Assembly: GCF_029633915.1 (NCBI RefSeq)
Contig: NZ_CP091092.1
Span: 992,001 to 1,056,000, forward strand
Source of the DNA: Methanomicrobium antiquum
GTDB taxonomy: Archaea; Halobacteriota; Methanomicrobia; Methanomicrobiales; Methanomicrobiaceae
Length of the DNA: 64,000 nucleotides
Reading direction: 5' to 3'
Within the stretch, counting starts at the first letter, position 1; each line of letters starts with the position of its first letter. Below, in pieces: positions 42,811-61,060 of the stretch. The translations under genes were made by a program, and so were the position numbers. Under the pieces are notes generated by a model. That model worked only from the letters and a program-made list of their open reading frames with translations. It was not told the DNA's origin and did no database searches.

Positions 42811-43887
42811 TTAGAAGCAGTTCCACCATTTGGATTGAATTTTTTTTAATTTTTTCGCCATCTTTTCTGTGACCCTGAATGAAATATCATTTAGAGATTC
42901 CTTTAATAAAGGTTCATATAGTGAAGGTTCTCTGATTCCTGACAGATCCAATCCTGCCAAAGCGGCAATTATTGCAAGATTCACATAGGGTAGTCCACCT
43001 TCAACACTATATCCGCCCTCAAGGACACCTGTAACCCTTCCACTGCATGTTAATTCTGAAAGATATACTGTTTCTGCCATTAAATCTGCATATCCTTTTG
43101 CAGTCAGTGCAAGTGATGAATGATTATCTGTGAAATGGTTGTCCTGACCTGCCGAAACTGCAATAAAATCAGGTTTAAATTCCAATGAAGCAGGAATAAT
43201 AATCTCTTTCATCAGGTATCTGTATACATCATCACTGCTTCCCGGAGGAACCGGCATATTAATTGTTTTACCTTTACCCTCACCTTCTCCTGTTTCTTTT
43301 ATCTTTCCGGTTCCCGGAAAACAGTTATCCTGATGAATTGAAATATATAAAACATCAGGATCATCATAAAAAATATCCTGAGTCCCGTTTCCGTGATGAG
43401 CATCCCAGTCAATTATTACAACACGCCTGCACCCGCATTTTTGTACGAACCGTGTCATTACTGCCACATTATTGATATAGCAAAAACCTCCTGCAAAATT
43501 TCGTCCTGCATGATGGCCGGGCGGTCGGACAAGAGCAAAAGAATTTCTCACATCTCCTGAAAGTACAGACTCAGCCGCACATATAGCACCTCCTGCAGAG
43601 AGAAAAGCCTTATCCAAAAATCCGGGTGGAGCATAAGTATTTACATCAAAATTTCTGCCGGATTTATCCGCTTCTTTGAGAATTTCAATATAATTTTCTG
43701 TATGAACAGCTAAAATATCTTCTTGATTTGCTATTTTAGGATCGATTTTTTTTATGCCTGATTCCATCCATATTTCTTCTTCATCAAACATATCCAGAGT
43801 ATATGCAATTCTCTCTTTTCTCTCAGAATGAACAGGATTTTGTTCATGAAGCAGATAATTAAAATGAGAGACAATTCCTGTTTTCAT
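42811..43887 (-). CDS. Histone deacetylase-family (class II-like) deacetylase
   Basis: The family removes acetyl groups from lysines or polyamines using zinc. The start at 43887 (MKTGIVSHFNYLLHEQ) has a CAGAGG site and overlaps the upstream gene as ATGA; an upstream in-frame start would add 13 residues inside that gene. Motifs are RPPGHHAGRNFAGGFCYINN (tandem catalytic His, about residues 123-142), IDWDAHHGNGTQDIF (zinc ligands D and H, about 158-172) and SAGQDNHFTD. The 358 residues are full length. Its target in an archaeon may be an acetylated chromatin protein, a metabolic enzyme or an acetylpolyamine. Confidence 0.92.
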   Translation of the reverse strand: MKTGIVSHFNYLLHEQNPVHSERKERIAYTLDMFDEEEIWMESGIKKIDPKIANQEDILAVHTENYIEILKEADKSGRNFDVNTYAPPGFLDKAFLSAGGAICAAESVLSGDVRNSFALVRPPGHHAGRNFAGGFCYINNVAVMTRFVQKCGCRRVVIIDWDAHHGNGTQDIFYDDPDVLYISIHQDNCFPGTGKIKETGEGEGKGKTINMPVPPGSSDDVYRYLMKEIIIPASLEFKPDFIAVSAGQDNHFTDNHSSLALTAKGYADLMAETVYLSELTCSGRVTGVLEGGYSVEGGLPYVNLAIIAALAGLDLSGIREPSLYEPLLKESLNDISFRVTEKMAKKLKKIQSKWWNCF

Positions 43888-45344
43888 GATACCTCTGAGG
43901 AAATTCCCGGCGGAATTGAGACACATAAATCAACAATCCGGCCTTCTATTTTTTTATCTTTTACAACGTCATATGAGCGAAAACTCTTCACAATTACATT
44001 TTCGCAATCATCCTCTGGAGAACCTGCATCCATTGCAGTTTTCCTCAATTTTAAGATGCAGTCTTCAATTAATTCATCATCATCAAGATATTTTTTGAAT
44101 TTGTCTAATACTAAACCATTTACAGACATTCTGGATTTTCCACTGTCATAATGTACGGACAATGAAAGACTTAATTTTGAAACTGCAACTCCAACTGCGC
44201 TGGCTGATTCTGCATGTTCCGGAATAATCACTTTAATTTTGGACATTTCAGAGATTTTTGGACCCAATATTGGTGATAAATATCCGGCGGCTATAATGAG
44301 TTTAGGAGAATAAACAGATAGGGCATACTCAACTCTTTTATAGAAATCCTCAACTGCCCTATCTGCATAATTCCTGTTAAGATTTTTTGATGAAGAAAAA
44401 TCACCAATTTCCTGACCGCAGACGTTTAAGGCATCAGTTAGTGTATAAGAATAGCCTCCAAATGCACGTGCAGGACCTTCTCTAAAAGGTAAAAGACCCC
44501 CTGCTTCTACAATACTATCTCCGCCATATGGAATTGATATAGAACGTATTCCGCCGATACCGGTATCTTTTCCTTCAAATTCAACAGGCCCTTCCTTTGG
44601 CATTCCATCTTCCATTGGAACAAAATCAGTTGTCGTTCCGCCAATATCAATTACAAGTGCATCCTTAATTTTGGAAAGATAGCCTGAACCTATAACAACT
44701 GCGGCATTGCTTGAATTATAAAGAACAGAAGGATTGTTATATGTCATATCAGGAGAATAAAGGCCGCCGTCTCCCTTCATGAAAAAAAAATCACGGTTTG
44801 GAAAATGATTATTTATTGTATCTCCTATATCCAAAACAACACCTTTTATCTGTGCATTCATTCGCGTTGCCGCAATTCTTGAGGGATAACCAATTGTTCC
44901 TATATGATGGCTCAGAGCTTTATTTCTCTCTTTGAAATAATCTTTTGATATTTCTGAAACCTTTTTTTCAAGAACTGGGTTTCTGACAGAAAATTTACAT
45001 GAAACTGCCAGATAATCAGAGTTTGATTTTTTTAAAATAGTCTTTATCTCTTCAGAATCAATATCTTCTAGTATATCTCCTCTGATAGATATTGCACCTT
45101 TAACTGAAAACGGGTGAAAAAGACCCGGACCTGAAATATTAATTGTGCAGATATCATTTTCAGGTTTTAAAAAAAGTTTGTTTAAAGGCTGAGATGTGCT
45201 TATTGCAAGTTTGCCTTTTATTCCTGTCTTTGAAAGAACTGATGAAATTCCCGTTTTGTTAGACAACTTTAATGTCTCTATTGCATCGTTTTTGATAAAT
45301 GCAATATCAGTGTTTGTTCCCCCAACATCAATTCCTGTAAACAT
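43884..45344 (-). CDS. Hydantoinase/oxoprolinase-family protein
   Basis: The N-terminus MFTGIDVGGTNTDIAFI is the ATP-binding phosphate loop of the actin-like fold used by hydantoinase A and oxoprolinase. A second phosphate motif is DALVIDIGGTTTDFVPM (about residue 228), with the glycine-rich EVGGTGIGG-like region GKDTGIGGIRSISIPYGGDS (about 258). At 486 residues it is a single A-type subunit with no B subunit next to it. Methanogens use a related, shorter protein in methanofuran synthesis, so a C1-cofactor role is possible but unproven. Overlap with the deacetylase suggests linked functions. Confidence 0.85.
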   Translation of the reverse strand: MFTGIDVGGTNTDIAFIKNDAIETLKLSNKTGISSVLSKTGIKGKLAISTSQPLNKLFLKPENDICTINISGPGLFHPFSVKGAISIRGDILEDIDSEEIKTILKKSNSDYLAVSCKFSVRNPVLEKKVSEISKDYFKERNKALSHHIGTIGYPSRIAATRMNAQIKGVVLDIGDTINNHFPNRDFFFMKGDGGLYSPDMTYNNPSVLYNSSNAAVVIGSGYLSKIKDALVIDIGGTTTDFVPMEDGMPKEGPVEFEGKDTGIGGIRSISIPYGGDSIVEAGGLLPFREGPARAFGGYSYTLTDALNVCGQEIGDFSSSKNLNRNYADRAVEDFYKRVEYALSVYSPKLIIAAGYLSPILGPKISEMSKIKVIIPEHAESASAVGVAVSKLSLSLSVHYDSGKSRMSVNGLVLDKFKKYLDDDELIEDCILKLRKTAMDAGSPEDDCENVIVKSFRSYDVVKDKKIEGRIVDLCVSIPPGISSEVS

Positions 45345-45487: not shown

Positions 45488-46012
45488 TCATTCAATATAC
45501 GGTGTAGCTTCTCTCTTCATCGGTACAACATTTGCTCCTTCCATATTTCCAAGCGCCCACGAGTATCTCTTGCGAACACCTTCGGGTAAATCCTTCTCAG
45601 GCAACTCCTTAAATCCATAAACACTATAAAAATCAGTAAGATGTTTTACTGAGTACATGTAAAGGGTATCATTATGGCATGCCTCCACAAGAGCACTGAC
45701 AGCCAGATGAGCATAGCCTCTTTTTCTAAACTCCTCGGGAGTGAATACCCCGTCAACCTCGTAGCTTATGGATGGTTTGTCAGGATGTTTTCTGCATCTT
45801 GCAACAGATACTAGCTGACTGCCAAGAAAAACTCCAAAAATACGATCTGTTTTTGGATCTCCGGTTGTTTCATGATAGTCAGTCCAGATTGTATTTGCCT
45901 TTATAAATTCAGAACTTTTTAATTCCCTAATATCAGGGATAATTCCTTTTTTACCAGATGTCTGAGGTTTTCCTGTATCAGTCAGGTTCATTCTTGCATT
46001 GCTTTCTTTCAT
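45488..46012 (-). CDS. GNAT-family N-acetyltransferase
   Basis: The start at 46012 (MKESNARMNLT) is chosen because GGAG lies six bases before it; an ATG at 46024 sits on that site and touches the kinase stop. The acetyl-CoA binding core is VDGVFTPEEFRKRGYAHLAVSALVEAC (about residues 87-113) with the R/K-x-x-G-x-A-like RKRGYA motif, followed by HLTDFYSVYGFKELPE. The acceptor is unknown. It immediately follows the histidine-less kinase gene and is probably co-translated with it. Confidence 0.88.
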   Translation of the reverse strand: MKESNARMNLTDTGKPQTSGKKGIIPDIRELKSSEFIKANTIWTDYHETTGDPKTDRIFGVFLGSQLVSVARCRKHPDKPSISYEVDGVFTPEEFRKRGYAHLAVSALVEACHNDTLYMYSVKHLTDFYSVYGFKELPEKDLPEGVRKRYSWALGNMEGANVVPMKREATPYIE

Positions 46013-46024
46013 AAAAAACTCCAT

Positions 46025-47431
46025 TTAAATTATTCTATAACCTTCAGATGGAATTGAAAGTTCAAATCTGGCACCTTTACCCGGAATACCTGTCTCTTTA
46101 ATTGAGATTTTTGTAATTGAAATTATGTCCTGCATCAGGAAAAGACCTCTTCCATAACTCTCATCAGAATCTCTCTTTAAAAGTTCTTCTTTGTCAGTTT
46201 CAGGAATACCTGGTCCGTTATCTTCATAAATAAGTGTACATCCATCAGGACTTAACTGATAGGTGATAATAATTTTTGTAACATCTCCTGCAAGGTTTGC
46301 AGAGTTATCAATTAAATGATAAAGTGCTTTTGAAAAATTTGGGTCTGCAAAAACCTCAAGCCTTTCAGTCCATGGTTTGAAATAAATCTTTTTGAGATCC
46401 ACTTTCTCAGCGGCTTCATTTGCTGCATTCTGAACTGAAATCCATGTTGGAGGTTTTGTACCGATAGCACGAAAACCGCGTGAGATTCCAAGTTGTCTTT
46501 CAATTCCGTCTGCCGATTTTTTTACTTCCTCAATAAATGAGATAACATCCGGATCATTAAATCTTAAAGTTCCAAGCCTTAAAGTGCCATATAATACAGC
46601 AAGCTTTTTGGAAAGATCAGTTCTTATAATACCTGATAATGTATTGAGCTTTTTAGAAGTATTGCTTAGAGCAGATTCAGTCATTATAATATCAGTGATA
46701 TCACGCATAGATTCAATGCCGGCAATTTTTTTTCCCGATTCATCTTTTACAGCCACAGAAGAAAGATTAAGGTATATACCGCTCTGGTCTCTAAAATGTG
46801 GAATTCTGACTTCTGCTGAGTATCTGCCGTCTTCATTTTTATAGTCAGGATACTGCTTTTCAATTCCTTTTTCTTCTGAAACAATATAATCAACAAGCAT
46901 TGGAATTCTATCACCGTAAATTACCAAAGAGTGCTCATAGTTATTTTTCCCGATAATCTCTGATTTTTTTACATTTGTAAGCTTCTCAGCGGCTTTGTTC
47001 CATGCAGTAACTGTTCCGCTTTTGTCTATTATGAAAGTTGCATCAGGAAGTGATTCAATGATGTCATTTAACAGGTTTTCCGAATGCCTAAGATTTGAGG
47101 ACAGGTATGAAACCAAAAATCCGACAAATAAAAATGAAAATGCTCCTGAAATTTTCAAAAAGTTTTTAGAAATATCTGTCCCCTGGGCAAAATCAGGTAC
47201 TGATATAAAGTACATTAAAGAGAGAAATACCAAAAAAGGATAACATTTTCGCGGGAAAAAACTAGCTGAAATTATCAAAGGAAAGAAAAAAATTCCTGAT
47301 AGCAAAAATTTAAATTCAGGAAAAATCCCTGATAAATTTATAAAAATTGCTATAATTGTTGTAATAAATACTAACATTAATTGTTTTTTAGTTGCAGGGT
47401 ACATTTTTTCAACAATTGATTTAATATCCAT
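46025..47431 (-). CDS. Membrane PAS histidine kinase-like protein, H-box His replaced by Thr
   Basis: The 468-residue protein has four to five N-terminal membrane helices (about residues 15-112), a PAS domain (about 118-245, with SLPDATFIIDKSGTVTAWNKAAEKLT), a short helical H-box region and a C-terminal HATPase (about 360-468, with DNSANLAGD, EDNGPGIP and SYGRGLFLMQDIISI). The H-box reads SGIIRTDLSKKLAVLYG; the adjacent intact kinase has ASITRHDLLNQLTALQG, so Thr occupies the His position. It may bind ATP but cannot phosphorylate itself in the usual way. A CGGAG site precedes the ATG. Confidence 0.88.
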   Translation of the reverse strand: MDIKSIVEKMYPATKKQLMLVFITTIIAIFINLSGIFPEFKFLLSGIFFFPLIISASFFPRKCYPFLVFLSLMYFISVPDFAQGTDISKNFLKISGAFSFLFVGFLVSYLSSNLRHSENLLNDIIESLPDATFIIDKSGTVTAWNKAAEKLTNVKKSEIIGKNNYEHSLVIYGDRIPMLVDYIVSEEKGIEKQYPDYKNEDGRYSAEVRIPHFRDQSGIYLNLSSVAVKDESGKKIAGIESMRDITDIIMTESALSNTSKKLNTLSGIIRTDLSKKLAVLYGTLRLGTLRFNDPDVISFIEEVKKSADGIERQLGISRGFRAIGTKPPTWISVQNAANEAAEKVDLKKIYFKPWTERLEVFADPNFSKALYHLIDNSANLAGDVTKIIITYQLSPDGCTLIYEDNGPGIPETDKEELLKRDSDESYGRGLFLMQDIISITKISIKETGIPGKGARFELSIPSEGYRII

Positions 47432-47460
47432 GAGAACTCCGTTTTTTAAATGATAAAGGA

Positions 47461-48783
47461 TTATTGAGAATTATCCGAATTTCGAATAGAATTTTCCGGC
47501 ACAAGTAATTCAAATCTTGCTCCTTCTCCTCTTTTACCGGTTTCACTTATTTTAATTCCGGTAATTCCTAAAATTTCTCTTGATAGGAAAAGTCCAAAAC
47601 CTGTATTCATACCATATTCATATGAAAAAATTTTTTCTTTGTCATTGTCCTTAATTCCAACTCCGTCATCCTCACAATATATACAACAATTTCCGTCTCT
47701 TTTCTCTGATCTGAATCGTATATAGGTTATTTTATCGCCATACCTGACTGCATTATCTACAAGATTTGAAAAGACTTTCTCAATTAGTGAATCTGCATAA
47801 ATATCAATATCGTGTGAGATATCGTTTTCAAATCTAATGTCCCCGACATTTATGTGATTTAGAGAATTTCCAACAAGAGTGTGAAGTGAATGCCATTTGG
47901 GTGAATACTGGCCAATTTCCTGATAATCTTTTGTAAATTCAATTGTATTTTTTGTTTTTGTTATCATGCCAAAAGCTTTTTCAAGATTTTTACGTGCAGT
48001 TTCGGGCTCTTCGTCCCACAGCATATTTGTAATTTCAAGATACCCCTGAAGAGCTGTAAGCTGATTTAATAAATCATGACGGGTAATGCTTGCCATCAGC
48101 TGGAGTTTTTTATTTGCTTCTGCAAGGGCATTTTCAACCCGCTTTCTTTCTTTGTTTTCAGCCGATAAATTCTCATTTAAAGAAATTTGATCTGAAAATG
48201 CTTTTTTAAGTTCTTCATTCAATGAATTTAGCCTGTCATGAGCTTCTTCTATCTCAGAATTCTTTTTTACGGCAACACTGTATGTAGTGAGAAGGATATT
48301 TAAGATCTCATTCTTTCCTGAATTTATCTTGTAATTTTTTCCCAGATAGCTGAAATTAAATGGATTTATAGTTTTATTTTCGTTATTGCTGATAATATCC
48401 GGTAATATATCAATTATTAACTTTTGAATATCCTCTTTTTGATAAGGTTTGATTATGAAATAGTCAGCACCGGCTTCAAGCCCTTTTATCAAATCCTCTG
48501 CATCAAAAAGCTGTGTTACAAGTATTACAGGTATGTGTGCTGTCTCCTCAGAGGTTTTTATTTTACTGCATAATTCATAGCCATTCATCTCCGGCATTAC
48601 TATATCTGTCAATATCGCATCTGGCATGAAACTGCCAACTTCCATTAAAGCTTCTGAACCATTGTCGGTGATAAGCACCCTGCATCCTTCTTCTTCAAGA
48701 ATAAACCGAAGAAACTTTGCCTGAGTCCTGCTGTCTTCAACAACAAGTATTTTCAGAGATTTATTTGAACTATTGTCGGTCAT
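47461..48783 (-). CDS. Receiver-histidine kinase hybrid
   Basis: The N-terminal receiver domain (residues about 9-130) has the acidic pocket ED16-17, the phosphoacceptor Asp60 in ILTDIVMPEMNGYEL and the Lys in IKPY. A coiled-coil linker with many Asn and Glu (about 175-235) leads to an intact H-box SITRHDLLNQLTALQG (about residue 240) and an HATPase domain with NLVDNAVRYGD, CEDDGVGI and TGFGLFLSREILGI. At 440 residues it is cytoplasmic. It can receive phosphate from another kinase, such as the CheA upstream, and act as a kinase itself. Confidence 0.93.
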   Translation of the reverse strand: MTDNSSNKSLKILVVEDSRTQAKFLRFILEEEGCRVLITDNGSEALMEVGSFMPDAILTDIVMPEMNGYELCSKIKTSEETAHIPVILVTQLFDAEDLIKGLEAGADYFIIKPYQKEDIQKLIIDILPDIISNNENKTINPFNFSYLGKNYKINSGKNEILNILLTTYSVAVKKNSEIEEAHDRLNSLNEELKKAFSDQISLNENLSAENKERKRVENALAEANKKLQLMASITRHDLLNQLTALQGYLEITNMLWDEEPETARKNLEKAFGMITKTKNTIEFTKDYQEIGQYSPKWHSLHTLVGNSLNHINVGDIRFENDISHDIDIYADSLIEKVFSNLVDNAVRYGDKITYIRFRSEKRDGNCCIYCEDDGVGIKDNDKEKIFSYEYGMNTGFGLFLSREILGITGIKISETGKRGEGARFELLVPENSIRNSDNSQ

Positions 48784-49007
48784 AGATTACTCCAGATTAT
48801 TTAAAATGCCCAAAGACAGAGATTATATAAATCGGTGAGAGGGGTATCATAAAATGATTATCTGAATGAGAGATGAGAAGTAATATTTTATAAATATATC
48901 TTTTTTTTACAAAATATTTTTCTGGTCTGATTCATTCTGAGTTTATTTTTTCAAGATTGTTAACAAAAAATTTCATGATTTTTTAAAGAGAGAGATCAAA
49001 ATCAAAT
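48784..49007. other. Intergenic region between the CheA and hybrid kinase genes
   Basis: 224 AT-rich bases. A near-palindrome around AAATTTCATGATTTTTT (about 48967-48984) lies just past the CheA stop and could end or attenuate that transcript. The remaining DNA is long enough to hold a separate promoter for the hybrid kinase, acetyltransferase and histidine-less kinase genes. Confidence 0.4.
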
Positions 49008-51479
49008 TTAATTTTTCAAATTTGATTCGAGAAGATTTTTAACAATGCTTATAAAATTATCTTCAGAAAAGCCATCTTTTGTAATGTATGCATTTGCACC
49101 GGAGATTAATCCCTGTTTTTTATCTTCAGGGCTGTTAAGTGACGTTATAAGAATAACGGGAATTTTGGAGATTCGGCTTTCACTTCTAATTTTCTCGGTA
49201 AGTGTAAAGCCGCTCATTCTGGGCATATCCACATCAGATACGACAAGGTCAAAATCCCAGTTTTCTTTTAATCTTAAAAATGCTTCTGTTCCATCAGAGG
49301 CAGTTTCAACATTATGTCCTCTTTTTTTTAGCATATTTAAGATGTATTGTCTTGATGTTACAGAATCCTCCACAACCAGAATTTTAGCATAATGTTTTGG
49401 ATTGCTATTATAATTTTTAGATTTATTTACTTTCTCTGCTCCCATAACATGTTTTAAGACATATTCTATTAATTCAAGGGGATCTAATACAAGAGCAGGA
49501 ATACCGTCTCCTAATATAGCAGCACCTGAAATCTTTTTAACATGACGGAGCTGAGTACCAAGACTTCTTACAACAATCTCCTGGACTTTCATAACCTCAT
49601 CAACAATAAAGCCTATTTCTCCGACTCCATACGCAAGAATTACTACGGAAACTCTTTTTTTACTTTTTTGAACAGATCCTCTGTAATCTTTAATTCCAAG
49701 AGCATCAGAGAGTCTGATGACTCCTATCTTATTATCTTCTAATTTTATTGTCTGATGGATTAGATTGTAGTCAAGCAGGTCTGCATCAATATTTGTTACT
49801 TTTTTAACATGTTGTTTGGGAAAAACAAATTTCTGTTCACATGCTGAAACAACAAGACCTCTGAAAGTTGCAAGTTTTAAGGGCAGATTAATTGTAAATT
49901 CTGTCCCTTTGCCCAATAATGTATTTAATTTAATGTCTCCGTTTAAATGGGAGATAGTATCTGCAACTATTGCAAGACCAATTCCTCTTCCGGATATTTC
50001 TGTAATTATATTACTTGTTGTAAGCCCTGATCTGAAAATCAGATCATTTACTTCTTCCTCAGAAATTTGAGAGGCTTTTTTGTCAGTTATGATTCCTGTT
50101 TCAACAGCTTTTAATTTAATCATATTGCTGTGGATACCCCTTCCATCATCAGATATTTTTATTCCGACCTTGCTTCCTGAAAGAGTGTATATTTTTATTT
50201 TTATCTCACCTGATGGGGGTTTCCCTGCCTTAATTCTTTCCTGTGGGTCTTCAATTCCATGATCTATGCTGTTTCTTATAAGATGCATCATGGGATCTTT
50301 TAATGATTCAAGAATACGCCTGTCAATCTCAATTTTTCCACCTTCAACTTTTAAATTTACTTCTTTTCCAAGACTCTTTGAAATATCTCGAATATATTCA
50401 GGAAATGATTTAATCATTGAATTGAAGGGTAATAGAACAGCATCATGAATTAGATCAGAAATCTCGGATGTTGTTGTTTCAAGTTCAGATCTGTCAAGTT
50501 CAGAAGCCCTTATATGTCTTGATAAATGATGTTCCAGATCAGTTACAAATTCCCTGTTAAAATCCAGAAATTTTATTACATTTAAAAAACTTTTTTCAAA
50601 TAAGGGAGGCAGACCTGAAAATTCAGATGAATTTGACAATTCACGTATTTTGTACATTTCATCAAATATCTGACCGTCATTCCAGTGCCATTTCTCAAAT
50701 CCGGAGATTAAATTTTCAAGTTCTTTAATTCTCTGGGTAAAAGAAAGTCTTACTGTTAAAAGGTCATCTGATCCTAAAATCAGCCTGTCCAGTTTTTCTG
50801 ATGCAATACGAACAGTACTTTTTTTGGAATCTGTTATATCCGGGCTTTTTGTTTTTCCAGAATATGTATCTATATTCCTGTCGAAGGTACGGTAAGAGAA
50901 AGAGTCTTTGTTATCTGAAATGTTTTTATAGGAATTTTTCTCATTATCTTCAAAGACTGAGGCTTTAGAGGCTGTATCTGAAAAATTATTTTTCAAAGAT
51001 TTGTCATAAATTTTATCTGTTTCAATATTATCAGATACATCGTTTTTTCCAGTAAAAATATCATAATTTTCAGTTTTATCTTTTTTTTTGGCAGACAAAT
51101 CCTTCAGTTCTACAATTATCCCTGAAAAAGAACCTTCATCATCATTTTCTGACAGTTTTGATCTTACATATTTTATCGACTGATAAAAAGTATCAAAGGC
51201 CTTATCATCAGCTTCAAATTCATCTTTTAACATTGCAGAAAATATATTTTCCAGATTTTGGCATATTGATACAATCTGTGGTATATTTACAGCACGAGCC
51301 GCACCTTTTAAACTGTGAGTCTTTCGATAGATATTTTCAACAATATCCATATGTTTTTTTATATCAGATTTTTCAAGGACAATGAGTCCCTGAGATATAT
51401 CCTCAAGGTACTCAAAAGCCTCTTCCCTGAAAGTCTCAAGCAGTTGTTTTCGGAAGATATCATCAGTTTCTTTAGTCAT
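49008..51479 (-). CDS. cheA: CheA-type kinase fused to a receiver domain
   Basis: The 823 residues hold, in order: a phosphotransfer Hpt domain (about 10-110; His55 in KTHSLKGAARA), a disordered Asp/Ser-rich linker (about 125-220), a dimerisation region, an HATPase domain (about 385-525; LMHLIRNSIDHGIEDP, SDDGRGIHSNM, ISGRGIGLAIV), a CheW-like domain (about 530-670) and a C-terminal receiver (about 695-815; ILVVEDSVTS, VVSDVDMPRMSG). No CheY-binding P2 domain is evident. The CheA-receiver fusion is as in FrzE and WspE. It follows the receptor gene by nine bases. Confidence 0.94.
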   Translation of the reverse strand: MTKETDDIFRKQLLETFREEAFEYLEDISQGLIVLEKSDIKKHMDIVENIYRKTHSLKGAARAVNIPQIVSICQNLENIFSAMLKDEFEADDKAFDTFYQSIKYVRSKLSENDDEGSFSGIIVELKDLSAKKKDKTENYDIFTGKNDVSDNIETDKIYDKSLKNNFSDTASKASVFEDNEKNSYKNISDNKDSFSYRTFDRNIDTYSGKTKSPDITDSKKSTVRIASEKLDRLILGSDDLLTVRLSFTQRIKELENLISGFEKWHWNDGQIFDEMYKIRELSNSSEFSGLPPLFEKSFLNVIKFLDFNREFVTDLEHHLSRHIRASELDRSELETTTSEISDLIHDAVLLPFNSMIKSFPEYIRDISKSLGKEVNLKVEGGKIEIDRRILESLKDPMMHLIRNSIDHGIEDPQERIKAGKPPSGEIKIKIYTLSGSKVGIKISDDGRGIHSNMIKLKAVETGIITDKKASQISEEEVNDLIFRSGLTTSNIITEISGRGIGLAIVADTISHLNGDIKLNTLLGKGTEFTINLPLKLATFRGLVVSACEQKFVFPKQHVKKVTNIDADLLDYNLIHQTIKLEDNKIGVIRLSDALGIKDYRGSVQKSKKRVSVVILAYGVGEIGFIVDEVMKVQEIVVRSLGTQLRHVKKISGAAILGDGIPALVLDPLELIEYVLKHVMGAEKVNKSKNYNSNPKHYAKILVVEDSVTSRQYILNMLKKRGHNVETASDGTEAFLRLKENWDFDLVVSDVDMPRMSGFTLTEKIRSESRISKIPVILITSLNSPEDKKQGLISGANAYITKDGFSEDNFISIVKNLLESNLKN

Positions 51480-51488
51480 AGAACTATT

Positions 51489-53873
51489 CTATACGCGGAA
51501 TTTTTCTGTAATATTCTTAAGTCTTGTACCAAGTTCATGAAGGTCTTCTGCGGTTTTTTCAGCCTGACGTGTGATTTCAAGATTTTTCTGTGCAGCATCC
51601 CGAATATTTACCATAGCAGTAGATATTTGATCCATTCCGGAAACCTGCTCTTGTATTGAAGATGCACTTTCAATTGAAGCTTTTGATGAATCTGCAATAG
51701 ATCCTGCAAGAACCTCGATTGCCTCGGAAGCTTCACGGGCGAGAGATACAGCATCAGATACCGATTTGTTGCCCTGCTCTGTTGATACAACTGTTGATGA
51801 AACGCCTCTTTGAATATCAGTAAGAATTGTTCTTATCTTTGATGTAGCCTGTTTGGACTGTTCTGCAAGATCATGAATCTCATGAGCAACAACTGCAAAA
51901 CCTCTTCCAAGTTCGCCAGCTTTTGCGGCTTCAATGGATGCGTTCACAGCAAGCAGATTTGATCTCTCAGAGATATCTGTAACCGTTGCAATAATCTCAC
52001 CTATAGCCTGGCTCTGTTCAGAGAGTTTGATAACATTGAGTCCCACCTGATTCATCTGTCTTTGAATCTGATTCATTCCGTCAAGGATTTCTTTTACTGA
52101 CTTCTGGCCGTCAATAGAAACTTCTATTGCTTTCATTGCCTTTTCTGAAACAGATTGCGTTTTCAAACTGACCAGATCCGTTTTTTTCCTTACAAGCTCT
52201 ACTGTATCTGATGTTGAATTAACAGTAGTTGCAGTCTGCATACTGGCAGATGAAAGCTGATTTGTGACTTCCAAAATATCACTTGATGCAGATGAAAGGA
52301 CTGATACACCTTCATAAATCTCTTCTGATATAAGTTTCATGAGACGTGACAATTCAATACCAATTGTGTTTAAGGCATCACGGTATGCAATAAAATCTCC
52401 GGCAACAGGGATTTTTTCATCAAATCTTGCTGTGAAATCTCCGGATGCATAATATCTTGCAAGACGCATCGCTTCATTTACAGGTTCTGTTATTGACTCA
52501 AGAGTTTTGTTAAAACCCGCAATAATCATCTTATATCCGCCTCTGAACTCTTTTTCATTGCCTCTTACAGATAAATCTCCTGCCCTTGCAGCATCTGTCA
52601 TTTTTATTGTTTCTTTGTGAAGGTGATCAAGAGACTGCATCATCATCTTTAGTGCAGGGCGGATTTCATCATTTTCATCAGTAACAGGAAAATCTTTAAT
52701 ATATTCTCCCCTGGCAATGCTTTTGATATTTCCTACAATATTCACCTGAAGGTCATCGGCAAATTCATCCATTGTCCTTGCCATAACACCTATTTCATCC
52801 TTTCTGCGGGTATTAAGTCTGGTGGATAAATGTCCGTTTCTTAAGTCCTTAATCATCTCGACAACCTGTTGAAGAGGCTCTGAAATAGAGCGTCCAAAGG
52901 TAACTGCAATAAAAACTCCTATGCAGATAAAAATTGCACAAACAATAACAATACTATTTCGAATAGTTTCAATAGGCCCTGTAAAATCATTTAAATCTGC
53001 TCTTGAAATTATAAACCAGTCAAGAGGTTCATAATAGACATAAGCATCAAAATAATTGTTTTCTTCATCCTCACGAACAAAGCCTCCTTCCCTGTTGTCA
53101 AGCATATCATGGAAATATATTTGATCAGAGATATTCTGGCCTTCCATTGTCGGGTGCACCAAAACATTTCCGGCACTGTCAACAACATACATAAAACCGT
53201 TTGTTCCAACAACAGTATTTTTTATACTATCTTTAACAACTGCCAGGGTTTCTCCTTCTTCTGTTCCAACAAATAAAATCCCAATTATATCTCCGTTTAT
53301 GTCGCGAATTGGCTCATAGGCTGTTACATAGTTGACGCCAAAAAGCTCTCTTTTGCCATAATATGTTTCACCATTATTTACAGTAACATCATAAACATTT
53401 TCTGTAAGACGTGTTCCTACAGCCCTCGAACCATCTGTATCTTTGACATTTGTTGATATTCGTATTGCATAACTGTCATTGAAAACCTGGAATATTGTGG
53501 CCGCTCCCCCGACAAGATCCTGCACCTGATCTACTATCTGAAAATTATCATTGGCAACATATTTTTCACCTGTATCTGTAGTTAAGACCATCTTGCCGTC
53601 AATAATCTCAGGTTTTCCTTTTTCATAAAAATTCTGTCTTAGAACGTTTAGATCACTATTTACTTTATTGATTGTCAGTTTGTAAACATCATTGGTCCAC
53701 CCTTTCATATCATTGACCTGGGTTGTCAGAAGAGTTTCAGTTTCCTCGTTGATAACACCGCTTGAACTGGAGTATGCAACAATTCCTATTGAAAGTGAGG
53801 GCAGAATAGATAAAAACAGACAGATTACTAAAATCTTTGTTCCTACTTTCATATTTGAAAAAAAATCAGCCAT
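51489..53873 (-). CDS. Methyl-accepting chemoreceptor with Cache sensor and several HAMP domains
   Basis: The 794-residue receptor has a membrane helix at about residues 13-36, an extracellular Cache-type sensor (about 40-300, with [13 protein letters not shown] and FVGTEEGE), a second helix at about 308-330, a HAMP domain and at least two more HAMP-like repeats (about 335-530), then a long helical signalling domain (about 530-794). The hairpin tip is [41 protein letters not shown], close to the FrzCD type. No C-terminal CheR-tethering pentapeptide is present; the protein ends ITEKFRV. Ligands are unknown. Confidence 0.94.
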
Positions 53874-53998
53874 TTAACCAGACCTCCGCTACATTATAAA
53901 AATCTGAATTTTTTATAGATTATTATTCCAATCTATTCATAGGATTAATAATTCTTTCTTTTTACATTAAAATCTTCATAAAAAAAAAGATTTTATTT

Positions 53999-55282
53999 TT
54001 AATCATCAATAATCATATCATGTGATAAAAGAAGAGCTTCTGCATCAAAGACAATTAAAGAATCATCAACTATCCCTTTTATGTATTTTCTAATATCGGC
54101 GTTGTATCTGATATCATCACTTTCCTTTATTTTTTTAGCAGGAATTGTTCCAACATCTGTAATATAATCTGCGAGTATTCCAAAAGTGATTTGTCCATTT
54201 GTTAAAACAATTACAATATTTAAATCTGTAATTCCTGTGCTTGGAAGAGAAAAAAATTTCCTTAAATCAACAAGAGAGATTATTTCGCCTCTTAGAGCGT
54301 AAATGCCTGATATGTATTCCGGAACACCAGGAACAGGTGTTAATCTGTCATAAATTAAAACTTCCCGAATATATTTCATTTCAAATGCATATTCTTTATA
54401 CATTATTCTGAAACGAAGAAGATCAATTGTTTCATCCTCCCATGATTCTGTCTGACTTTTTGCAATCTGTTTGCTTCTATTATCCAGGATTTTTTTTATC
54501 TCTTTAGGCGTTATAGATTTTTCATCCGATGTGTAGAACTGTGCCAGATTCTGTTTGAGATTTTCTTTTTTTGGGATAATTAATTCATTACTGTTTTTTG
54601 ACTGCAAAGAGTCGTTATAAGTGTCAGAATCAACTATCTCTTTATAGTTCATAGAAGATTGGTTATTTTTAATATATTTGATATTATTTCTATTTTTAAT
54701 CATTTCATATTCAGGCATATTTAAAAGATTTTTAAACATTCCCATACTTCCATATCTGATGAATCTCCCGGGTTCTTCTATTAACAGTATAACGCCTGTG
54801 GCCAAATCTCCTATGTATATTTTTAGACCATTATTATCATACTTTATGTGTTCTTCGCTTTTTTTATGATTTTTTTCTGTTAGTAAATCTTCTCTTCCAT
54901 ATACTCCGATTATACTTCTGACCCATAATGAGGAATGCCTGAATTGTTCATTTGAACCACTGTCAATTATTATCAGGTTGTCAGTTGTTGAAGGCTTTGC
55001 TACCTGTTCTCCAAAAAAATTAATGATTGAATATACCGGGATTTCTTCACCATGATATGAAAAAAAGCCTTCAATCTCTCTTGAAATATCATCATTTGAT
55101 TTTGATGAGGATTCATCGTTAGTTTTAGATTTTTGAGTTATATCCAGCATTCTTAGAACAAATGTAATCTTTGAAAGAGGAATTGCGCAGAGCAGATCTC
55201 CGGCTATGAACAATAGTACGTGATCTGTTAAATCTTCCGGCATTATTTGCTTAAGATTTTTTAGAGATTGTGAGTAAGGCAT
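53999..55282 (-). CDS. Protein with two CheW domains
   Basis: CheW domains couple receptors to CheA. The 427-residue protein has one N-terminal CheW domain (about residues 17-165; LLFIAGDLLCAIPLSKITFVLRM, IPVYSIINFFGE), a charged Asn/Lys-rich linker (about 190-265), and a second CheW domain (about 280-427; RFRIMYKEYAFEMKYIREVLIYDRLTPVPGVPEYISGIYALRG, IISLVDLRKFF). The first is less conserved. Two domains on one chain could bridge two receptor-kinase units. It is the first gene of the signalling cluster, 125 bases before the receptor. Confidence 0.9.
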   Translation of the reverse strand: MPYSQSLKNLKQIMPEDLTDHVLLFIAGDLLCAIPLSKITFVLRMLDITQKSKTNDESSSKSNDDISREIEGFFSYHGEEIPVYSIINFFGEQVAKPSTTDNLIIIDSGSNEQFRHSSLWVRSIIGVYGREDLLTEKNHKKSEEHIKYDNNGLKIYIGDLATGVILLIEEPGRFIRYGSMGMFKNLLNMPEYEMIKNRNNIKYIKNNQSSMNYKEIVDSDTYNDSLQSKNSNELIIPKKENLKQNLAQFYTSDEKSITPKEIKKILDNRSKQIAKSQTESWEDETIDLLRFRIMYKEYAFEMKYIREVLIYDRLTPVPGVPEYISGIYALRGEIISLVDLRKFFSLPSTGITDLNIVIVLTNGQITFGILADYITDVGTIPAKKIKESDDIRYNADIRKYIKGIVDDSLIVFDAEALLLSHDMIIDD

Positions 55283-55631: not shown

Positions 55632-56876
55632 TTAGTTTTTACTAAATATGTTAAAAATCTGGTCATCACCAGTGTCATTTAGACGTTTTCTCTCAACCGG
55701 CTCTTCTACAAGTGAAAGCAGTGGAAGATCCATATTAACACCAGGAACGTAACCGAACATATTCTCCATTTCAACCTGAATTGCATGCATGTAAAGAGCA
55801 TTTGGAATATCCATTGCACAAAGTTCTTCACACTGACCACAATTTATACAGGAATCTGATATATGTGAGTATCTGATTAAATGGAACATAAATGGTGGAG
55901 GGATCTGTCCCGGAGTAACAAGATAGGGTTTCTTTGTAGAACACTCGACACAATAGCAGATAGGACAGTTTTCAATACATGCATAACATTTTATGCATCT
56001 TGAGGTCTCGTCCATTATAAACTTCAGACGGTCCTTGCCTTCGCCGAGTTTTGCAAACTGTTCTGCACGTGCCTTGTCGGCAAGTTTGAACATTGAGTTT
56101 TCGATCTTTGCCCTGATTGCAATACCCTGTGGATCTGCGTCAGTAGTTTCAATTGCACCGGATGAAGATGCTTTAGAGACCAGTTCTGCACCTTTGTCAG
56201 AGCATACTTCCACAAATGTTGCTTTTCCGGCTTTATCTCCAATAACACCCCAGTTACCACATGCAATGTCACACTGTCTTGGAACTTTTGTTTTACAGCG
56301 TTGGCAATTGGCACGACGTCCGAATCCTTCTTCTTCAAGGTCATCGATTTTTATACCTTTGTGCTCACCATCTTTTGTGATGATAATGAACTGACCTTTA
56401 TCTATTTCTTCTTTTACAACATTGTCTGGGTTAATTCCAAACTTTTCCTCAATCATTCTTCTTCCTGCAACAGGGCTTATTGAACCACCGCAGTTAAGAC
56501 CAATTGAGTATATGTTGTCAAGGTTGATTTGCTGTCTTTTTGCAAGTTCATAAAGTGCTTTTGCATCGCAACCCTTCAGGGTTACAGCAATTTTCATATC
56601 TTTTGCACCATTGAGGAACTTTTTTATATGTTTTGGCAGTAGAAGAGTGCCGCAGTGGAGTGAACCGCCAAGTCTGTCCATATCTTCAGGTTTTGTGATA
56701 AATGCAGGTTTTGCAGTATAGATATCATAACCTTTTTCAACTGCAAATACTGCATCAACAAGGCCGGTTTCAAGGGCGTTTTTAAGAATTGCAGTTACTG
56801 CACCGCCACATTCTCCTCTTTCAAGACATGCGGGATCTTTTGCCCATGCCAGTAACATATCACCTTTTGCTGTCAT
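55632..56876 (-). CDS. fdhB: Formate dehydrogenase beta subunit (F420-reducing type)
   Basis: FdhB takes electrons from the formate-oxidising subunit and passes them to coenzyme F420. The 414 residues combine an FrhB-like F420/FAD region (about 10-250, with SLHCGTLLLPKHIKKFL and TLKGCDAKALYEL) with two [4Fe-4S] sites near the C-terminus (CIKCYACIENCPICYC at about 294-309 and CINCGQCEELCAMDIP at about 348-363). It follows fdhA by two bases on the same strand. The enzyme is cytoplasmic in methanogens and may join the heterodisulfide reductase complex. Confidence 0.95.
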   Translation of the reverse strand: MTAKGDMLLAWAKDPACLERGECGGAVTAILKNALETGLVDAVFAVEKGYDIYTAKPAFITKPEDMDRLGGSLHCGTLLLPKHIKKFLNGAKDMKIAVTLKGCDAKALYELAKRQQINLDNIYSIGLNCGGSISPVAGRRMIEEKFGINPDNVVKEEIDKGQFIIITKDGEHKGIKIDDLEEEGFGRRANCQRCKTKVPRQCDIACGNWGVIGDKAGKATFVEVCSDKGAELVSKASSSGAIETTDADPQGIAIRAKIENSMFKLADKARAEQFAKLGEGKDRLKFIMDETSRCIKCYACIENCPICYCVECSTKKPYLVTPGQIPPPFMFHLIRYSHISDSCINCGQCEELCAMDIPNALYMHAIQVEMENMFGYVPGVNMDLPLLSLVEEPVERKRLNDTGDDQIFNIFSKN

Positions 56877-56878
56877 TT

Positions 56879-58945
56879 TCAGGCCTCCTGAATTTTTTCT
56901 ACCTTTATAGCACAGGCCTTGTACTCAGGAATCTTGGATACAGGATCCAGTGCATCATTTGTAAGTCTGTTTGCAGGACATTCTGCAAAGTGGAATGGCA
57001 TGAACATAACACCTTTCATGATATCTTTTGTAACCTTTGCATTAACCTCTACTTCACCACGTCTTGTTATTGCACGAACCTTCTCGCCGTTTACAATTTC
57101 AAGTTCCTTTGCATCTTCAGGGTTGATTTCAATCCATCCGGTTGGAACCTCATGGTCAAGTGTCGGGGAGTTTCTGGTCATTGTACCTGTATGCCAGTGC
57201 CAGATTGTTCTTCCGGTTGTGAATATATATGGATATTCAGCATCGGGAACTTCTGCAGGTGCTTTCCATTCAAGTGGTGTGAGAATTCCAAGACCGTCAG
57301 CGGTTGCAAATTTCTGAGTATGCAGAATAGGTGTTCCGGGGTGGTCTACTTCAGGACATGGCCAGTGAAGTCCTTCTGGTTTTTCAAGCCTTTCATAATT
57401 CATACCGTGATATGATGGTGTAAGTTCTGCAATTTCATTGAAAACATCTTCTGATGTCTCCCATGAGAACTGGTCAGCATATCCCATTGCTGCTCCTATT
57501 TCGGCAATAATTTTCCAGTCAAGTTTTGCTTCACCAGATGGATCCTGAGCCTTCCTCCATCTCTGGACACGGCGTTCAGTTGATGTCTGTGTTCCGTCTT
57601 TTTCTGCATAGCAGGTTGCTGGCAAAACTACATCTGCAATCTGTGCTGTTTCGGTCAAGAAAATGTCCTGAACTACGAGGAATTCAAGTGATTCAAATGC
57701 ATGCTTTGCATGGTCAATGTTTGGATCAGATAAAAGCGGGTTTTCACCCATGATATACATTGCTTTAAGTTCTCCTGGGTTATCGGACATTACGTTGACC
57801 ATTGTGGTGACTTCGTATCCATTTTCTCCAGGAGCAATTCCGTCAGGGAATCCCCATGCATCTTCAAATTTTTTGTATGCAACAGGATCGATTACCTTTT
57901 GATATCCTGTGAAAACTACAGGGAGTGCTCCCATATCACAGGCACCCTGAACATTGTTCTGTCCACGAAGTGCATTTACTCCGGTTCCTGGTCTTCCAAG
58001 GTTTCCGGTTACCATCTGAAGGTTTGCTGTTGACTTTACATTGTCTACACCAACTGTATGCTGAGTGATACCCATTGAGTAAAGAAGTGCTGCACTTTCT
58101 GCTTTGGCATATACTTCTGCGGCTTCTCTAAGTTGGGCTGCCGGAATTCCGGATATCTTCTCAACATTTTCAGGAGAATATTCATCTTTCATTACAAGTG
58201 CTTTAAGCTCTTCAAAGCCCGTTGTTCTGTTTGCAATGAATTCTTTGTCTTCCCAGCCATTCTTGATGATTTCATGCATAAAGCAGTTTATAATTGCTAC
58301 ATCACTGCCTGATTTAAACTGCATGTAAATGTCAGCCTGTTTTGCAGTAGGAGTGTATCTTGGATCTGCGTAGATGACTTTTGCGCCCTTTTTCTTTGCA
58401 CGCATTACTCTACGACCAATAAGCGGGTGCTGTTCAAAAGTGTTGCTTCCAATGATAAAGACGCATTTTGCCTCTTCAATATCGGGTATTGAATTGGTCA
58501 TTGCACCTGATCCAAATACTGCTGCAAGTCCTGCTACTGTTGAAGAGTGGCAAAGACGTGCACAGTGATCAATGTGTTTTGTCTTTAATGCACCACGTGC
58601 AAATTTCATGAGTGCGTAATTATCTTCATTTGAAGTACGAGCTGATGAAAGACATGCTATTTCAGATGAATTGTAGCTTTTAAATTTCTCTGCAATAAGT
58701 TTGTATGCTTCATCCCATGAGGATTCTACGAATTTCCCGTCTTTTTTAATAAGTGGGACTGTCAGTCTGTTAAGACTGTTTATAAATTCATAAGCATATG
58801 TACCCTTGGGACATGTTTTACCTTCATTAACAGGTGATCTTTGAAAAGGAGCATTACCTACTACTTTTCCATCAACAACTGTAAGATAAAAGGTGCAACC
58901 TGTTCCACAATATGGACAGGTTGTTGGAACGTACTTTAATTCCAT
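56879..58945 (-). CDS. fdhA: Formate dehydrogenase alpha subunit (molybdopterin)
   Basis: FdhA oxidises formate to CO2 at a molybdenum or tungsten bis-pterin site. The N-terminal [4Fe-4S] motif is CPYCGTGC...CPKG (about residues 10-50). The metal ligand is Cys in DHCARLCHSSTVAGL (about residue 135), so this is a cysteine, not a selenocysteine, enzyme. The body (QNNVQGACDMGALP, GENPLLSDPN, VVLPATCYAEKDGT) and C-terminal pterin domain (TGRTIWHWHTGTMTRN) are complete at 688 residues. An AGAGGT ribosome site and a TATA box lie upstream. Confidence 0.97.
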   Translation of the reverse strand: MELKYVPTTCPYCGTGCTFYLTVVDGKVVGNAPFQRSPVNEGKTCPKGTYAYEFINSLNRLTVPLIKKDGKFVESSWDEAYKLIAEKFKSYNSSEIACLSSARTSNEDNYALMKFARGALKTKHIDHCARLCHSSTVAGLAAVFGSGAMTNSIPDIEEAKCVFIIGSNTFEQHPLIGRRVMRAKKKGAKVIYADPRYTPTAKQADIYMQFKSGSDVAIINCFMHEIIKNGWEDKEFIANRTTGFEELKALVMKDEYSPENVEKISGIPAAQLREAAEVYAKAESAALLYSMGITQHTVGVDNVKSTANLQMVTGNLGRPGTGVNALRGQNNVQGACDMGALPVVFTGYQKVIDPVAYKKFEDAWGFPDGIAPGENGYEVTTMVNVMSDNPGELKAMYIMGENPLLSDPNIDHAKHAFESLEFLVVQDIFLTETAQIADVVLPATCYAEKDGTQTSTERRVQRWRKAQDPSGEAKLDWKIIAEIGAAMGYADQFSWETSEDVFNEIAELTPSYHGMNYERLEKPEGLHWPCPEVDHPGTPILHTQKFATADGLGILTPLEWKAPAEVPDAEYPYIFTTGRTIWHWHTGTMTRNSPTLDHEVPTGWIEINPEDAKELEIVNGEKVRAITRRGEVEVNAKVTKDIMKGVMFMPFHFAECPANRLTNDALDPVSKIPEYKACAIKVEKIQEA

Positions 58946-59402: not shown

Positions 59403-59429
59403 TTGTACTTTGAGGAAATAACGTATAAT

Positions 59430-60356
59430 ATGCCTTCAATAGATGGATTCATAGAGGGTTCAAACACATCACTTGCTCATTATGGTCTTGTTGCCGGTGC
59501 TTATGACAAGCTTGAAATCGGTGAGCTCATCGACGAACTTATTCCTAAAACAAAATCACACATTGTCACTCATAGTCAGATTGTAAAATCACTTGTTATT
59601 AACGGTCTGGCATTCATTGACAGGCGGCTTTATCTTCATCCTGTGTTCTTCAAAGACGTTCCAACAGAGCGTTTCTTTGGTAAAGGGATTGAACCCGGGC
59701 ATTTCAATGATGATACACTGGGACGGACTCTCGATAGAATCTATGAATATGGACCTACTGAATTATTCAATCAAATTGTGATAAAAAGACTGCTGAAGGA
59801 TGATTATGGAATCCACTGTATTCATGTGGATACTACAAATTTTAGCGTTTACGGAGACTATGATAGTGATTGCGATTCACGGAATATGGAGATAACATTT
59901 GGTCATCCTAAAGACGGCAGAAACGATCTCAAACGATTTGTACTCGGAATGGCTTCAGATAATCGGGGAGTCCCGGTCTTTCTCCAGACATTTTCAGGTA
60001 ATGAATCAGATAAAAAAGCAATTATTGAGATGATAGATAAACTGAGGAAAAATCTTATTTTATCTCATAAAGTCTACCATATTGCCGATAATGCCTTTTA
60101 CACTAAGGCAAATCTTCAGGAGATGGGCGATCACACTTTCTGGATAAGCAGAGTTACAAACTCGATTGGAGAGGCGAAAGAATTCCTGAGCTTGGATGAA
60201 ACTTTACAGGAATGTGAAGATAATAGATATTCATATGCAGAAAAGATCTCATATTATGCAGGTATAAAACAAAAATGGGTTCTGTACAGCTCAAATGAAA
60301 TGCAAAAGCAGAAGCTTAAAAAATATGAGATAATTCTTCATATGTCATTGGTTTAA
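59430..60356 (+). pseudogene. IS1634-type transposase, 3'-truncated
   Basis: The start at ATG 59430 (MPSIDGFIEG) opens an IS1634/IS4-type transposase. SLAHYGLVAGAYDKLEIGELIDELIP (about residues 13-38), HFNDDTLGRTLDRIYEYG (about 90) and the first DDE aspartate in CIHVDTTNFSVYG (about 130) are conserved, as is HIADNAFYTKANL. Full members have about 540 residues; this frame ends after about 308, just after ISYYAGIKQKWVL, so the C-terminal third with the catalytic Glu is gone. The end (KKYEIILHMSLV) is not transposase-like. No matching terminal repeats were found. It cannot be active. Confidence 0.85.
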
Positions 60357-60595
60357 GTAAAGTATAATATTGCCAAAACTTCTAAATTCAAGTTAGAATT
60401 ATCTCAATAGGTAGGAAAAGGTAAATAATTTCATTCATCATACAATTTTGATTGGTTCAGGGAAATTCTGACATCAAAACACTGCAAAATATATAGCAGA
60501 TTACACAAAATATGGAGGTTCTTCTCCATTTTTCTGAAAGTTAGGACTATCCAAAAAGAGAAACAACTTAGAGAATAACCTCCAAATGTGATGAT
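60357..60595. other. 239 bases between two transposase remnants
   Basis: No gene. A hairpin ATGGAG-GTTCTT-CTCCAT occurs at 60512-60529. Sequence near 60540-60560 (TTAGGACTATCCAAAAAG) lies just ahead of the ISL3 start and may be part of its left terminal repeat. Confidence 0.4.
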
Positions 60596-60850
60596 ATGTC
60601 CAATAAACATTACAAATGGAGGGAATGCATTTCTGCATTCACATCTATGTTCTCATTTGTGGGCTTTAAGATTATTGATCTGGAAGAGTCAAAAGAAATA
60701 CTTACTGTCACTCTGGATGCAACAGAATTACCATGATGTCCCAAGTGCGGTGAATTATGTCATCGATAATAGGATGATGTCTATATCAGATCCGTCATTG
60801 ATTTTCCTGTTTCCATTTCTACCTGTCGTATTCAGTTCCCAATACACCAA
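60596..60850 (+). pseudogene. ISL3-family transposase, N-terminal fragment with stops
   Basis: From ATG 60596 the frame reads FKIIDLEESKEILTVTLDA then ELP, a TGA stop (60734-60736, one base from Trp TGG), CPKCGELCHR and two stops TAA TAG (60767-60772), continuing DDVYIRSVIDFPVS. The CxxC zinc site and the spacing match the start of ISL3 transposases. The similarity ends near 60850, where minus-strand IS21 sequence begins. About 85 codons remain of roughly 400. No usual start-to-stop gene exists here; it is a fossil. Confidence 0.75.
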
Positions 60851-61060
60851 ATTGATCTCTTCAAACCGTTTGTATGCCGGAAATCCAGCCTGTTGTATTA
60901 CACGTTCTCTTCTGCTGGTCTCTCTGGACTGTACTTCTGCATTGAGAATTCTGACAAGGAATTCTTCAGGATTTGTGAAGTCCTCTGCTATGGTGTGATA
61001 TGACTGGTATATTCCAGGCAGTCGTAACCGCCTGCAAAGATCTTTTATTTCTTCATCCAT
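60850..61060 (-). pseudogene. istB: IS21-family istB, truncated
   Basis: From ATG 61060 (MDEEIKDLCRRLRLPGIYQSY) the frame encodes about 70 residues of the IstB helper ATPase, up to AGFPAYKRFEEINL. The Walker motifs that should follow are missing, because the element is cut at about 60850 and joined to the ISL3 fragment. The start overlaps the istA end by eight bases, as in intact IS21 elements. Confidence 0.85.

Follow-up and report, generated by a model that had tools for sequence, protein, structure and literature searches.

A stretch of 64,000 nucleotides from the archaeon Methanomicrobium antiquum (below, the window; positions 992001-1056000 of its closed 2.44 Mb genome) carries, on the minus strand from 55282 to 45488, six genes that together make up a chemosensory module. 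The first encodes a double CheW of 427 residues (53999-55282; Pfam CheW twice, domain 1 at residues 18-147 and domain 2 at residues 283-427), and the second a membrane chemoreceptor of the 40H length class (51489-53873; Cache_3-Cache_2, HAMP, HAMP_2 and MCPsignal). These are followed by the genes for a CheA fused to a receiver (49008-51479; Hpt with H55, HATPase_c, a P5-like CheW domain and Response_reg at residues 700-808), for a receiver-histidine kinase, here called the receiver-kinase (47461-48783; Response_reg and HATPase_c, with D60, K112, H236 and N344), for a membrane PAS protein with a kinase module, here called the PAS kinase (46025-47431; PAS and HATPase_c), and for a GNAT acetyltransferase (45488-46024; Pfam GNAT). 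The receptor and CheA genes are only 9 bases apart, and the PAS kinase gene directly adjoins the GNAT gene, an arrangement that suggests an operon. A preliminary description, made from the letters of the DNA, had proposed such a set on one strand, and Pfam confirmed the domains of every member; it had also called the membrane kinase histidine-less, which the threonine found at the histidine position (T271) bears out.

The possibility that these genes belong to an archaellum/chemotaxis cluster was considered and rejected, because that operon was found elsewhere in the genome: a complete arl-cheY-cheB-cheA-cheC-cheD operon lies at 1427-1443 kb, some 380 kb from the module, which is therefore separate. 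The preliminary description had seen no archaellum genes and no cheB, cheC or cheD nearby and had advised a search for a second che cluster; the operon at 1427-1443 kb is that cluster, and the earlier statement needs qualifying in one respect, in that the sole CheR gene of the genome does lie in the window (8205-9002, plus strand), where it stands alone, at a distance from both the cheYBACD operon and the receptor genes. In the whole genome there are seven receptors, CheW domains in eight genes (two of them CheA), one CheB and one CheR. A second receptor-CheW pair is found just past the right edge of the window. Pfam detected no GGDEF domain in the module operon.

To place the module among its relatives, the CheA-receiver was searched for in 232 genomes of the order, and 76 loci with a CheA match were inspected together with their surroundings. 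Of these, 59 follow the plan of the window (type A) and 15 a fuller plan (type B), and two proved to be canonical clusters. Presence and absence of genes were scored by tblastn, since the calling of open reading frames (ORFs) can miss genes in G+C-rich loci, where antisense ORFs mask them. The type A loci carry five family codes (f1, f3, f4, f5 and f6), and dozens of further genomes in the order share the identical gene order, which puts the gene set far beyond chance. An origin as a local oddity or a recent import was rejected, the module being present in several families, as was the idea of a decaying remnant, the receptor sensor of the window sharing 61-74% identity with that of its relatives and the catalytic residues of the receiver-kinase being practically invariant. 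The core of type A consists of the double CheW, the receptor, the CheA-receiver and the receiver-kinase, and the g36 loci stop there, without PAS kinase and GNAT. The gap of 224 bases between the CheA and receiver-kinase genes in the window compares with about 0-100 bases in most relatives. Two further variations were noted: in G119 and G120 (f1/g8) a lipoprotein with, by eye, the look of an alpha/beta-hydrolase is inserted between CheA and the receiver-kinase (L059:7820-8680, minus strand; L060:11269-12222, plus strand), and in g16 genomes (L078, L125 and L126) two tandem receiver-kinases precede the PAS kinase.

The type B gene set, as read by Pfam in L087 and L085, comprises CheW, CheR-TPR, CheW, a receptor with a four-helix-bundle (4HB) sensor, CheA-receiver, CheB and a receiver-kinase. 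The complete set persists in relatives, in several genomes side by side with type A. Across 393 genomes of the phylum, CheA matches that include the receiver are restricted to this order, and the others stop at about residue 667-687, as canonical CheA does. In the window's own genus the sensor was not found in the five other genomes, where the CheA matches are of canonical level only. A related-locus search of genome contigs gave only three distant bacterial matches. One acidobacterial contig has CheW, CheR, CheW, chemoreceptor, CheA-receiver and CheB, and an annotated bacterial counterpart on a Mesorhizobium plasmid has the order chemoreceptor, CheW, CheR, CheW, hybrid kinase, CheB and PleD-type regulator. 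For Methanospirillum hungatei JF1, three CheA, four CheB and three CheR were reported without further description (PMC4704411). No paper on the module was found in the literature searched, which leaves out most subscription journals.

The descent of the module can be read from its signalling proteins. A maximum likelihood tree was built from the CheA core (46 rows, 450 columns). In it the window CheA stands with the bacterial CheA-receivers of Wsp type and well apart from canonical archaeal CheA; its catalytic motifs are conserved across all aligned relatives. Type A forms one clade (100/100) nested among type B, with the type B locus L092 as its sister (99/95). Descent from a system of the Wsp type, or more broadly of the alternative cellular function (ACF) class, is thus almost certain. 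A single clade of types A and B is not rejected (p-AU 0.33); the long bacterial branch of Niveispirillum falls, with weak support, among type B, and transfer between the domains may therefore have occurred more than once.

The double CheW tells the same story as CheA. Pfam recognises domain 2 strongly and domain 1 weakly (10 bits in a model built for this analysis), and in the CheW domain tree domain 1 joins the first CheW of type B (joint clade 97/90), while domain 2 falls inside the second CheW of type B, again with L092 as neighbour (99/92). Since the two CheWs of type B flank CheR-TPR, the double CheW is what remained after the removal of CheR. CheR was found by tblastn in none of the 59 type A loci and in 12 of the 15 type B loci, the other three being contigs of 6.4-10.4 kb. 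CheB gave a strong match in 14 of the 15 type B loci and, in type A, only three weak matches of 58-64 bits, which look like receiver-level similarity and were not checked one by one. The absence of CheB from type A is a derived loss; CheR was lost too, and the two CheWs became fused, very probably in a single event. The earlier view of a distinct module with neither CheB nor CheY of its own is upheld, none being clear in the 59 related loci, and CheR has to be added to the list of absent proteins.

The loss of the methylation enzymes is mirrored in the receptor. A strict scan for the methylation-site consensus was uninformative, because most type B receptors, which come with CheR and CheB, also lack the consensus, and an alignment of glutamate pairs was used instead. 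In the N-terminal arm, the pair is EE or QE in 14 of 15 type B receptors, and EE in none of 54 type A receptors; in the window receptor its position is occupied by E559-L560 (52199-52194). The pair lies opposite the C-terminal-arm position, about where the methylation sites of known receptors lie, and it is probably a methylation site. With CheR and CheB absent and the glutamate pair not intact, the module should report the absolute level of its signal, proposed below to be formate, and not temporal changes in it. Such a readout fits a metabolic or lifestyle switch, not swimming. Alternatively, this could be an ordinary Wsp/ACF system that borrows its adaptation enzymes in trans from elsewhere in the genome, where CheR (the solo gene) and CheB (in the main cluster) each occur once. 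This is very unlikely, given that the dedicated CheR-TPR and CheB disappeared together with the pair, which is missing from all 54 receptors, whereas the sister type, with enzymes of its own, keeps it in 14 of 15 cases.

Concerning the signal itself, the sensor (residues 33-306; 53777-52956) is a Cache_3-Cache_2 domain (PF17201, E 2.8e-71). The sister locus L092 has a 4HB sensor instead, which makes a replacement of the sensor on the stem of type A probable. The formate chemoreceptors PacF and McpF contain Cache_3-Cache_2, and in PacF the residues R142, T145 and T158 affect formate binding (PMC12501870). The window receptor has R138 (53462-53460), T141 (53453-53451) and T154 (53414-53412) at the same spacing, and among type A receptors these are kept in 53, 54 and 54 of 54 copies, respectively; they are also found in the paralogous Cache_3 sensors sampled. 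A phmmer search of the PDB returned 8py1 and 8py0 as sole matches. With an AlphaFold2 model of the sensor (pLDDT 90.8), Foldseek ranked 8py0 first and 8py1 third, fourth and sixth, both structures being titled 'in complex with formate'. In a survey of gut microbes, an sCache_3_3 sensor with the reported formate-binding residues did bind formate (PMC12415202). These results point to formate as the likely signal, which was absent from the preliminary description.

The genes next to the module point the same way. Directly upstream, on the same strand, lie fdhB (55632-56876, minus strand; FrhB_FdhB) and fdhA (56879-58945, minus strand; TIGR01591 formate dehydrogenase alpha, 878 bits against a cut-off of 666), which serve as context only. 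Further upstream, an fdhC-type formate transporter gene occupies 63491-64000 on the minus strand and runs on to genome position ~1056360; its product is 71% identical over 133 residues to the FNT-family transporter of L071. Between fdhC and fdhA, at 59403-62553, there are ORFs that by eye are transposase-like. The pair fdhAB also lies upstream of the double CheW gene in L069, L094 and L095, and downstream of the module in L080. The co-occurrence of fdhC as such is uninformative, since nearly all genomes carry it. Its position says more: fdhC is mostly single copy per genome, and it is near the module in L069, L071, L072, L093-L095 and L120. The distance is about 10-11 kb here and in seven g34 genomes; in the remaining placeable genomes fdhC is on other contigs or at large distances.

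The sensor might instead bind another small carboxylate or a different cue, with the fdh genes as neighbours by chance. Homologous Cache domains do bind many ligands, the proximal Cache module is conserved too, and most type A lineages show no linkage to fdh. Yet two formate complexes are the nearest solved relatives in sequence as well as in fold, hardly any copy departs from the three formate residues, and the mostly single-copy fdhC lies within ~10-11 kb of the module both here and in the separate g34 group, which makes another ligand unlikely. Formate is quite probably the ligand of the receptor. The same sensor type extends beyond the module. Several genera of the order have further proteins with this Cache_3-Cache_2 sensor (L145-L159), 40-50% identical and with the arginine and both threonines retained; L145 and L149, which were checked by Pfam, are chemoreceptors, and the whole forms a wider family of candidate formate sensors. 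A 436-residue protein (L161:1165-2475, minus strand) joins an sCache_3_3 (formate-type) domain to a V4R domain, and single-Cache sensors resembling that one, with the same three residues, are found in several genomes of the order.

As to the outputs, the preliminary description had named the two kinases. For the receiver-kinase this is likely: in 52 relatives D60, K112 and H236 are kept in every copy and N344 in 50, and the protein is quite likely to be the phosphate acceptor of CheA. For the PAS kinase it is doubtful, since the histidine is present in only 16 of 35 copies, the N-box in 29 and both in 11; the window protein still has its ATP-binding boxes, some relatives keep the histidine and lose the ATP box, and others do the reverse. 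Such variable decay is what would be expected if the protein's own kinase activity were dispensable, or if it worked in trans with a homologue. The kinase part of the PAS protein is indeed homologous to that of the receiver-kinase (28% over 226 residues, E 3e-24).

The PAS kinase occurs in 41 type A loci and GNAT in 39, never without the PAS kinase, and the acetyl-CoA motif R-x-x-G-[YLF]-[ASG] is intact in every aligned copy of GNAT. In seven loci the two proteins are encoded by one ORF, and the existence of these gene fusions lends weight to acetylation as an output, which in the GNAT-bearing lineages is a possibility of slightly less than even odds. The two genes might be unrelated passengers of the operon that take no part in the pathway, as would be allowed by the decay of the catalytic residues of the PAS kinase and by the failure to find the genes in roughly one third of type A loci, among them every g36 locus examined. 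This is doubtful in view of their fixed order and position in 39 loci of several families, of ORFs that abut or are fused, of a GNAT that is never without the PAS kinase and of the homology between the PAS protein and the receiver-kinase. An HDAC-family gene near the GNAT gene, at 42811-43926 (minus strand), looked like a deacetylase partner, a candidate set aside as a lead because the HDACs here and in g34 are only 38% identical. Near the module in g34 genomes (L069, L071, L072, L093-L095 and L120), there is an HDAC gene that is a different member of the family and lies on the opposite strand; this may be an acetylase/deacetylase pair or a coincidence.

An important question is whether the module serves swimming. 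Formate is a known bacterial attractant via PacF and McpF (PMC12501870), the genome has both an archaellum and a CheA-CheY chemotaxis operon, and the archaellum ATPase is present in most type A genomes. The CheA of the module might then feed the one CheY encoded in the archaellum cluster, or its receptor might join the main array, and swimming would be tuned in either case. However, the C-terminal arm of the receptor has 146 residues, 14 fewer than the 160 of most other receptors of the genome, which places it in the 40H and not the 44H class (the 'FrzCD-like tip' of the preliminary description proved not to be specific). A difference in length class between 40H and 44H argues against mixed receptor arrays. 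The module, moreover, has its own CheA, CheWs and receiver-kinase. None of the 59 type A loci lies inside an arl/che cluster, nor is any CheY or clear CheB linked to them, so that the comparison of gene order in relatives, suggested at the outset, speaks for a distinct module. Two type A genomes, G145 (93% complete) and G185 (96%), have neither ArlI nor CheD, which fits a role outside swimming. Formate taxis is for these reasons unlikely, and a function other than swimming is likely.

The interpretation favoured here, with a probability of roughly 0.6, is that a system of the ACF/Wsp type gave rise to a module that responds to formate, does without methylation and acts through the receiver-kinase and, in most lineages, also through the PAS kinase and acetyltransferase. 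Extracellular formate would bind the distal Cache module of the receptor, which, via the fused CheW pair, would set the activity of CheA. CheA would then phosphorylate both its own receiver, acting as a sink or relay, and the receiver domain of the receiver-kinase, the latter protein serving as output switch. Most lineages would have added the membrane PAS protein, which has a decaying kinase module with homology to the receiver-kinase and is coupled or fused to GNAT; it would probably read the state of the receiver-kinase or of its own PAS ligand and so gate the acetylation of a target. Without a methylation branch, the module would report the absolute level of formate to a switch of metabolism or lifestyle.

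Several observations weigh against this interpretation. The Foldseek match covers single-Cache domains (TM-score ~0.46 by query and 0.77 by target) and hence the distal module only. The fdh linkage amounts to no more than about three independent lineages (this genome, one g34 group and one g32 genome) and was not seen in the f3, f4, f5, g8 and g36 loci read. The solo CheR at 8205-9002 and the one CheB elsewhere in the genome could act in trans, and the two genomes without archaellum genes, G145 and G185, are drafts. Finally, the g36 loci do without PAS kinase and GNAT, so that acetylation cannot be the core output. The fullest version of the proposal, in which an array responding to formate without methyl-based adaptation controls protein acetylation through the receiver-kinase and a pseudokinase-acetyltransferase, is unlikely; if true, it would provide an acetylation output for a chemosensory system, perhaps reaching the enzymes of methanogenesis or the surface state.

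Two main electron carriers pass from bacteria to hydrogenotrophic methanogens, and formate is one of them. A described archaeal formate sensor was not found in the literature searched, and if formate is the ligand, this order-wide module is a direct and testable candidate for one. It is also a natural case of a chemosensory system that has shed its methylation memory, the fused CheWs being the scar of the excised CheR, and the comparison of type A with type B allows one to ask what adaptation is for.

Among known systems, the ACF class has been tied to CheR-TPR and to multidomain regulators including those with a receiver and a histidine kinase (REC-HK); it was detected in Archaea, and CheR-TPR was listed for bacterial groups only (PMC3447774). 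The module, assigned to this class by the presence of the receiver and by the CheA tree, has a CheA with a C-terminal receiver and a multidomain response regulator as output, and lacks CheR (CheR-TPR) and CheB in its cluster. With Wsp and other ACF systems it shares that CheA, two CheW domains, a 40H-type receptor and a multidomain response regulator output, and its sister type B shares the complete set including CheR-TPR and CheB. It differs from Wsp in the loss of CheR-TPR and CheB, in CheWs that are fused instead of standing around a CheR, in a Cache sensor that replaces 4HB, and in a receiver-kinase output instead of the diguanylate cyclase WspR (REC-GGDEF). The Frz pathway of Myxococcus, which does not serve flagellar swimming, also contains a CheA-receiver fusion, FrzE; here, however, the receptor is a membrane Cache protein and not the soluble FrzCD, and there is no CheR or CheB. 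Of the Frz/Wsp-like character first proposed, the Wsp/ACF plan stands, its nearest complete form, in a tree without FrzE, being of the Wsp type. From the F1-type chemotaxis of the archaellum, the module is set apart by its 40H instead of 44H receptor arm and by the lack of adjoining genes for CheY, CheB, CheC, CheD and the archaellum. PacF and McpF share with the receptor the Cache_3-Cache_2 domain, and together with the sCache sensors 8py0 and 8py1 they provide the three formate-binding residues at PacF spacing and the best structural match; the PacF and McpF described mediate bacterial chemotaxis, whereas the sensor described here belongs to an ACF-type module in a methanogen. Archaeal proteins with an N-terminal receiver and a histidine kinase were discussed in a census (PMC5847659). 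The one described here differs in being tied, in a conserved operon, to a dedicated CheA-receiver and receptor. Pseudokinases of the DivL type have a histidine kinase fold without the histidine and serve as reader or scaffold; as a lead only, the PAS protein may be compared with them, with the difference that it is coupled or fused to an acetyltransferase. Stripped of the defining Wsp features, CheR/CheB and the GGDEF output, the module is a reduced variant that retains an ACF/Wsp-like working plan.

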